Assembly (NCBI GenBank): GCA_001599975.1 | Contig: BCIO01000002.1 | Location: forward strand, 1,933,883 to 1,997,882 | DNA: 64,000 nt | Direction of reading: 5' to 3' | Source of the DNA: Cystobasidiopsis lactophilus | Taxonomy: Eukaryota; Basidiomycota; Agaricostilbomycetes; Agaricostilbales; Chionosphaeraceae | The notes under the pieces: model-generated | Seen by the model: the letters and a program-made list of their open reading frames with translations, nothing else | The model's database searches: none | Told to the model about the DNA's origin: nothing | Shown: positions 17,955 to 19,216 of the stretch, in pieces | Layout: each line of letters begins with the position of its first letter | How positions within the stretch are numbered: the stretch's first letter is position 1 | Program-made: the position numbers and the translations under genes

Positions 17955-19216
17955 ATGTGAGCAGTCCGTTCTTGAGACTAGTGGCAGCATGCTCAAATAG
18001 CATCCAGGGCCTTGAAGCGCATCCAAAAGGTGAGGGGAACCGACCTCAAAAGGGCGGCAAAGGGCCAATCCGCTGAACTGGCCTCCTCCCCTTCTCTCTG
18101 CCGTTCTGGCATCTAGGAATTGCTGGACCTGTCCAAAGACCCCCCTTCATCATGCTCAGCGGGACCAACCGGTGACAACCTGTTCTCGTAAGGCGGCTTC
18201 ATGCCTTTTCGAGCACGAACGGGGCCTGATTCTTGGCAACGCAGCTGGCAGGCGACCATTATGATAGGTCTCCTCCCCTGCTGTCGCGCGGCACCAGACT
18301 CCAAGGCTGACCTCGTACTTCTGGCGATGTTCACGGACCTGTAAGTGGCAAATGGTCGTGTGGCTGTCCGCAGGTCGCCTCAAGCTGACGATCCCCCTTT
18401 CTCGTCCGCGTCCAGGCCGATTCGCCTTACGCCGGCGGTGTGTTCTTGTGAGCTGCCTTCTCTCGTTATGTGGGATCCGCGCGCGCAAGGACTGACAGGG
18501 ACATTCCAGCTTGACCATCACCTTTCCGACCGATTATCGTCAGTAGCTTGCCCTTGCGCCGTTTCTGAGCCACTGACTCAGCACGTTGAATCGAACAGCC
18601 TTCAAACCGGTATGTTGGCCACATTTTAAGACCGTCATTCCGTAACTGAGATCTATTACGCCAATCAGCCCAAGGTGTCGTTCACGACCAAGATTTACCA
18701 TCCCAAGTGACTAAACTTGCCACCGATCCGCCTGCTTGGACTAACACTGAGATTTATCTCCCAACAGCATCAACGCCAATGGCAGTATTTGCTTGGATAT
18801 CCTGAGGGAGCAATGGAGCCCGGCCTTGACGATATCCAAAGGTGCGCTGCCGTTGTCTCTGCTTTTCTCGCGTATCGCTGGCTGACCGGCTCGCGTCTTG
18901 CAGTTCTCTTGAGCATCAGCTCTTTGCTCAACGACCCGAACCCTGTGAGTGCCGTCCCGAGCAAGCTTACCCAAGAATGCGGGCTGACCGCGCATTGAAG
19001 GATGACCCATTGGTGCCCGACATTGGTAGGATCTGGCGCTCCGTCCCTCACAGTGCGAGATTAAGTAGCGCTATCCCAAACAGCCCAACTCTACAAGACT
19101 GACCGCCCGCGCTACGAGGCCACTGCCCGCGAATGGACTCGCAAGTGGGTTTCAGAGCCAATACAAACCTTTGGCTGCTCTTGTCTCATCTCCTTCCATC
19201 CAGGTACGCCACCTGA
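17955..19216 (+). CDS. UBC4: ubiquitin-conjugating enzyme E2, Ubc4/Ubc5 (UBE2D) family
   Basis: This E2 carries ubiquitin for many RING ligases and for degradation of short-lived proteins. Fourteen exons join to exactly 444 nt, 147 aa, the Ubc4 length: 17955-17956, 18008-18029, 18117-18187, 18245-18263, 18335-18340, 18416-18447, 18510-18538, 18599-18609, 18669-18706, 18768-18841, 18904-18944, 19001-19025, 19084-19144 and 19204-19216. The product reads [56 protein letters not shown] (active-site Cys in SICLD) and ends TRKYAT. One residue departs from the usual LSICSLL (LSISSLL). The start codon is split AT|G by the first intron. All borders are GT-AG except 18264-18334, which reads AT-AC. Upstream untranslated sequence overlaps the open frame of the orphan gene. 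Confidence 0.93.
18264..18334 (+). other. probable AT-AC intron in UBC4
   Basis: After the codon for Met in WQATIM the sequence is ATAGGTCTCC, and the next usable coding bases GGACCT (Gly-Pro) are preceded by TTCAC. No GT-AG pair gives the conserved MGP junction. The 5' end lacks the U12 consensus ATATCCTT and looks like a GTAGGT site with its first G changed to A. A CTGAC branch-like motif lies near 18306. This is inferred from protein conservation. Confidence 0.65.

Follow-up and report, generated by a model that had tools for sequence, protein, structure and literature searches.

The UBC4 gene of Cystobasidiopsis lactophilus very probably contains a U2-type (major-spliceosome) AT-AC intron that is followed by a constitutive microexon of 6 nt. 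The gene lies in the window, the 64,000-nt stretch of contig C2 that was analysed from the 22.1-Mb, eight-contig genome. Intron 4 is 71 nt long (18264-18334) and reads ATAGGTCT...GGCGATGTTCAC; the other 12 of the 13 introns are GT-AG. The relevant features are as follows.

17955 to 19216, plus strand: UBC4 coding region, 14 exons, 444 nt, 147 aa (gene model, spliced aligner, gap-free match to solved Ubc4 sequences)
18245 to 18263, plus strand: exon 4, ending ...ATTATG (Ile-Met) (gene model, aligner)
18264 to 18334, plus strand: putative intron 4, AT-AC, 71 nt, ATAGGTCT...GATGTTCAC, phase 0 (gene model, aligner, shuffles, motif scan)
18307 to 18311, plus strand: CTGAC, branch-site-like sequence with its A at 18310 (motif at -28; distance within the survey range)
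18335 to 18340, plus strand: exon 5, 6-nt microexon GGACCT (Gly-Pro) (gene model, aligner, motif scan)
18341 to 18415, plus strand: intron 5, GT-AG, 75 nt, GTAAGT...GTCCAG (gene model, aligner)
18416 to 18447, plus strand: exon 6, starting GCCGATTCG (Ala-Asp-Ser) (gene model, aligner)

The gene model encodes 147 residues plus a stop, with no internal stop codon or frameshift across the 14 exons. Coding exon 1 contributes just two bases, the AT of an ATG interrupted by an intron (17955-17956). It was placed by consensus and homology rather than by the aligner, and the absence of an in-frame Met between the upstream stop and exon 2 supports it. The product aligns without gaps to the solved Ubc4 sequences 9b55 (residues 1-146, E-value: 2.3e-85) and 1qcq (residues 3-146). 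It is 82.5% identical to yeast Ubc4, and no closer UBC4 orthologue than this gene was found in the genome. The next-best gene is about 61% identical to yeast UBC4; a second UBC4 copy is unsupported. The window also contains a Pex24p-family gene and two TOR-like loci, at 20550-24200 (plus strand) and 42896-44416 (minus strand); one of the TOR-like reading frames has mTOR and FAT domains and the other a FAT domain.

The AT-AC junction is forced by the reading frame and the conserved protein. The base that follows exon 4 is an A, and the nearest GT is at 18268. GGACCT is the sole GGNCCN stretch within 18264-18415, with GTAAGT directly 3' of it. The conserved IMGP motif thus needs both the excision of 18264-18334 (ATAGGT...TTCAC, with AT and AC as terminal dinucleotides) and the retention of GGACCT as an exon. 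GGACCT is a microexon in the sense of a coding exon of a few nucleotides that is needed for frame and protein, and it restores the Gly-Pro pair. This pair is retained in five of six other E2 genes rebuilt from the genome (the UBC9-like gene has Gly-Lys). A spliced protein-to-DNA aligner written for this analysis, which permits GT-AG, GC-AG, AT-AC or free intron ends, chose ATAGGT...GTTCAC unprompted with both reference proteins (scores of 549.5 and 567.5). A sequence-only reading of this DNA had held that IMGP can be built in this way alone, that the 14 exons total exactly 444 nt and that the protein matches Ubc4 without an insertion; all three statements are borne out by the aligner, the gene model and the alignments to the solved sequences. 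Two variants were rejected by reasoning. In a nested (twin) intron the first base removed would have to be a G, which does not fit the A at 18264; moving both boundaries by one base would break ATG-GGA-CCT.

As a control, the sequence enclosed by the ATG and the final AG was shuffled 600 times, a design that is generous to chance because the first base stays fixed at A. None of the 600 shuffles matches the real score and four come within 10 half-bits of it (best 151.0, compared to 154.3 for the real sequence). An AT-AC intron occurs somewhere in the best path of 170/600 shuffles, so an AT-AC path by itself is uninformative and only the full-score solution counts.

To place intron 4 within its genome, introns were surveyed at 40 other loci, each aligned to the best of 20 hand-entered reference proteins (17 used). 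The 289 introns obtained comprise 276 GT-AG, 10 GC-AG and three with free ends (loci L056 and L059), with no AT-AC. Removal of 112 introns having fewer than four identical residues among the neighbouring eight or so on either side leaves 177 well-flanked introns (172 GT-AG, five GC-AG and no AT-AC). The aligner is sensitive to such introns: with both ends altered in silico, 168/172 are recovered as AT-AC in the same place. AT-AC introns therefore probably make up less than about 2% of the introns in such genes, which gives the AT-AC reading of UBC4 intron 4 a low prior and agrees with the earlier description of the class as rare. Published figures, as excerpted from the sources, are 0.019% of annotated fungal introns (PMC7072748), 69 of 14305 junctions in Trichoderma RNA-seq data, with no spliceosome assigned in the relevant passages (PMC4324775), and at least 42 introns in C. 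elegans that are thought to be real and processed by the U2 spliceosome (PMC3033335). Two further features of the gene emerge from the survey. UBC4 has the highest intron density, with 13 introns in 444 nt (about 29 per kb, compared to 3.3-18.1 per kb in 21 of the surveyed genes). C is found at position +4 in 93/172 surveyed GT donors (the genome favours GTGCGT) but in only 1/12 UBC4 GT donors.

Several explanations other than a U2-type AT-AC intron can be considered. Splicing may be canonical, with an insertion in place of Gly-Pro or with the microexon skipped; the region does offer a GT at 18268 and several internal AGs. When the aligner is restricted to GT-AG and GC-AG ends, however, the scores fall to 508.1 and 526.1, 41.4 half-bits lower with each reference, and the best model has a seven-residue insertion, lacks Gly-Pro and depends on a poor GC donor. 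Skipping would itself need an AT-AG intron. The AT-AC product scores 186.6 bits against the Pfam family, the exon-skipped product 176.5 and the canonical-only product 169.0. As all three exceed the family cut-off, these scores rank the products without excluding the alternatives. Taken together, canonical splicing of either kind appears quite improbable. An assembly or sequencing error concealing a GT-AG intron is also unlikely, if marginally easier to entertain given the rarity of AT-AC introns in the survey and in annotated fungal genomes; it demands that two separate bases 70 nt apart both be wrong, and in exactly the combination that is known to be tolerated (PMC6726248, as excerpted). The weakness of some UBC4 GT donors by the genome's own matrix (GTAGGA, GTGACT) would fit a pseudogene with decayed splice sites. 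A pseudogene is nevertheless very hard to reconcile with 14 exons free of stops and frameshifts, a gap-free product and a gene that is the closest UBC4 orthologue found.

The AT and AC ends would also fit a U12-type intron removed by the minor spliceosome, and minor snRNA genes are described in one fungus (PMC7072748, in part). The U12-type consensus is given as ATATCC for the donor and CCTTAAC for the branch site (PMC3033335, in part). Intron 4 (ATAGGT) agrees with this donor at only 3/6 positions; against longer, nine-position consensuses, the donor matches at 4/9 and the best branch site within the last 40 nt at 5/9. A Rfam search of the genome finds U6 at four loci and U2 at two, above the cut-off. 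U12 and U4atac have no match at E-values up to 1, and U6atac has just two weak matches (19.3 bits), both on U6 genes. The search for minor snRNAs covered U12, U4atac and U6atac and had no fungal positive control. The Rfam model for U1 also finds no match in the genome, so that the absence of an snRNA match is weak evidence; a U1 5'-end pattern has seven matches, compared to 13 for the reversed control, and the four of these seven loci that were scanned show no U1 at E-values up to 1. A pan-eukaryotic survey, in the part consulted, reports minor introns to be absent from Dikarya (PMC10639083). A U12-type intron is accordingly given next to no weight. Among the U6 loci, the copies at C5:1917364 and C5:1924492 have the same score and point in opposite directions, with about 7 kb between them, while C1:672671 and C1:643015 are divergent, one of them with a six-base insertion (all in genome G000).

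The sites of intron 4 instead resemble those of U2-type introns in both the remainder of the donor and the branch site. Scored with the genome's own matrix, the rest of the donor (AGGT) reaches 1.89, compared to a median of 3.83 for GT donors. This is at least as high as 27% of the surveyed GT donors, and so ordinary to weak; 6.6% of random positions equal it. The A of CTGAC is 25 nt from the end of the intron, within the 5-95% range of the survey (12.8-31), and CTRAY is present in only 77/177 surveyed introns. Because U12 motifs are lacking and U12, U6atac and U4atac are not found while U6 and U2 are, intron 4 is most likely a U2-type AT-AC intron. The sequence-only reading had likewise seen no U12 donor consensus and favoured the U2 type, and both views hold up here.

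The proposed model for removal of the intron is as follows. The donor would be recognised first by U1 and then by U6, by way of the last G of the exon and intron positions 2-6; ATAGGT resembles GTAGGT in all but its first base, which is A. U2 would recognise the CTGAC branch site. At step 2, the last base C (in place of G) would fit the first base A (also in place of G), and the contact between the two ends, which either change alone would break, would be restored. The intron may have arisen from a GT-AG intron by a paired change of both ends. By analogy with a mutated yeast intron, in which only GT-AG is more efficient than AT-AC (PMC6726248, as excerpted), the change of both ends in UBC4 intron 4 would be a tolerated combination, in line with the earlier proposal that A at the first base with C at the last is a viable double change. 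The same source, in the part consulted, states that no standard yeast intron normally uses AT-AC. Passages of another report describe single changes as blocking splicing. With G-to-A at position 1, yeast and human introns fail at step 2, a block that the Aspergillus telomerase RNA donor exploits, while the S. pombe TER1 intron failed already at step 1; when only the acceptor is changed, to AC, step 2 is the one that is blocked (PMC4299874). The effects of end changes thus appear to depend on context. U2-type AT-AC introns may also be trapped, because leaving this state needs paired changes (PMC2831892, in part).

The AT-AC ends could further be imagined as an insulated pairing code within one spliceosome that disfavours skipping of the microexon and was selected as an anti-skipping lock. 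Step 2 would proceed well from an A1 donor only if the acceptor ends in C. The donor at 18264 could then form no productive junction with the CAG at 18415, and AC would be of no use to the GT donor at 18341. A 6-nt exon would be too short for exon definition, and its skipping would be chemically disfavoured. This reading of the termini is doubtful, since short exons in this genome are also found with GT-AG introns on both sides and AT-AC ends are therefore not required for microexons. A 6-nt exon is unexceptional here: 12/249 surveyed internal exons have at most 11 nt, several of them with weakly matching flanks. Three that were re-examined fit their proteins and are flanked by GT-AG introns. 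L040 has an 8-nt actin exon. L050 (G000:C2:177500-182000, minus strand) has a 3-nt alpha-tubulin exon, AGC, that contributes to two codons and lies between introns of 68 and 69 nt. L044 (G000:C1:2971000-2974500, minus strand), a UBC4-like paralogue, has a 2-nt exon, TC (reverse-complement positions 1667-1668), between GTGCGT...CGGCAG (74 nt) and GTTCGT...CTTCAG (70 nt); its omission breaks the frame. The actin genes L030 and L040 each share 91% identity with the reference actin from yeast and have 12 and 13 introns, respectively.

U2-type AT-AC introns are a known class in animals, and yeast has been observed to use AT-AC junctions (PMC6726248 and PMC2831892, as excerpted); UBC4 intron 4 adds one member to this class, with an unusual neighbour. 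The comparisons that follow draw on parts of the cited reports. Human SCN4A intron 21 (U2-type AT-AC, AT-AC II) likewise has AT and AC ends with no U12 donor or branch motifs, and it requires the major spliceosome (PMC2831892). The UBC4 intron differs in being fungal, 71 nt long and beside a 6-nt exon, and its spliceosome is assigned from sequence. In Saccharomyces, the SUT635 protointron and an alternative RPL30 junction are also AT-AC in an organism that lacks the minor spliceosome (PMC6726248). SUT635 is a non-coding RNA and the RPL30 junction is an alternative one, whereas the AT-AC junction of UBC4 is apparently the sole route to a full-length conserved protein. A major-spliceosome donor with A at position 1, the AU donor AUA(A/C)GU, is likewise present in Aspergillus telomerase RNA (PMC4299874). 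There the spliceosome halts after step 1, whereas the last base C of the UBC4 intron should allow step 2. The 20-nt microexon of Trichoderma virens Xlr2 is another very short exon between introns (PMC11121469); the UBC4 exon is 6 nt, is probably constitutive and has one AT-AC flanking intron. A literature search, with thin coverage of subscription journals, found no published naming of this UBC4 intron.

Gene finders limited to GT-AG and GC-AG introns would mispredict UBC4, as the canonical-only aligner model illustrates. If the intron is real, a core gene of C. lactophilus carries a naturally occurring U2-type AT-AC intron that is apparently constitutive, in a genome where three minor snRNAs were not found. 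It would then be a natural setting in which to test how the first and last intron bases make contact during splicing, and whether terminal bases can prevent the skipping of a microexon.
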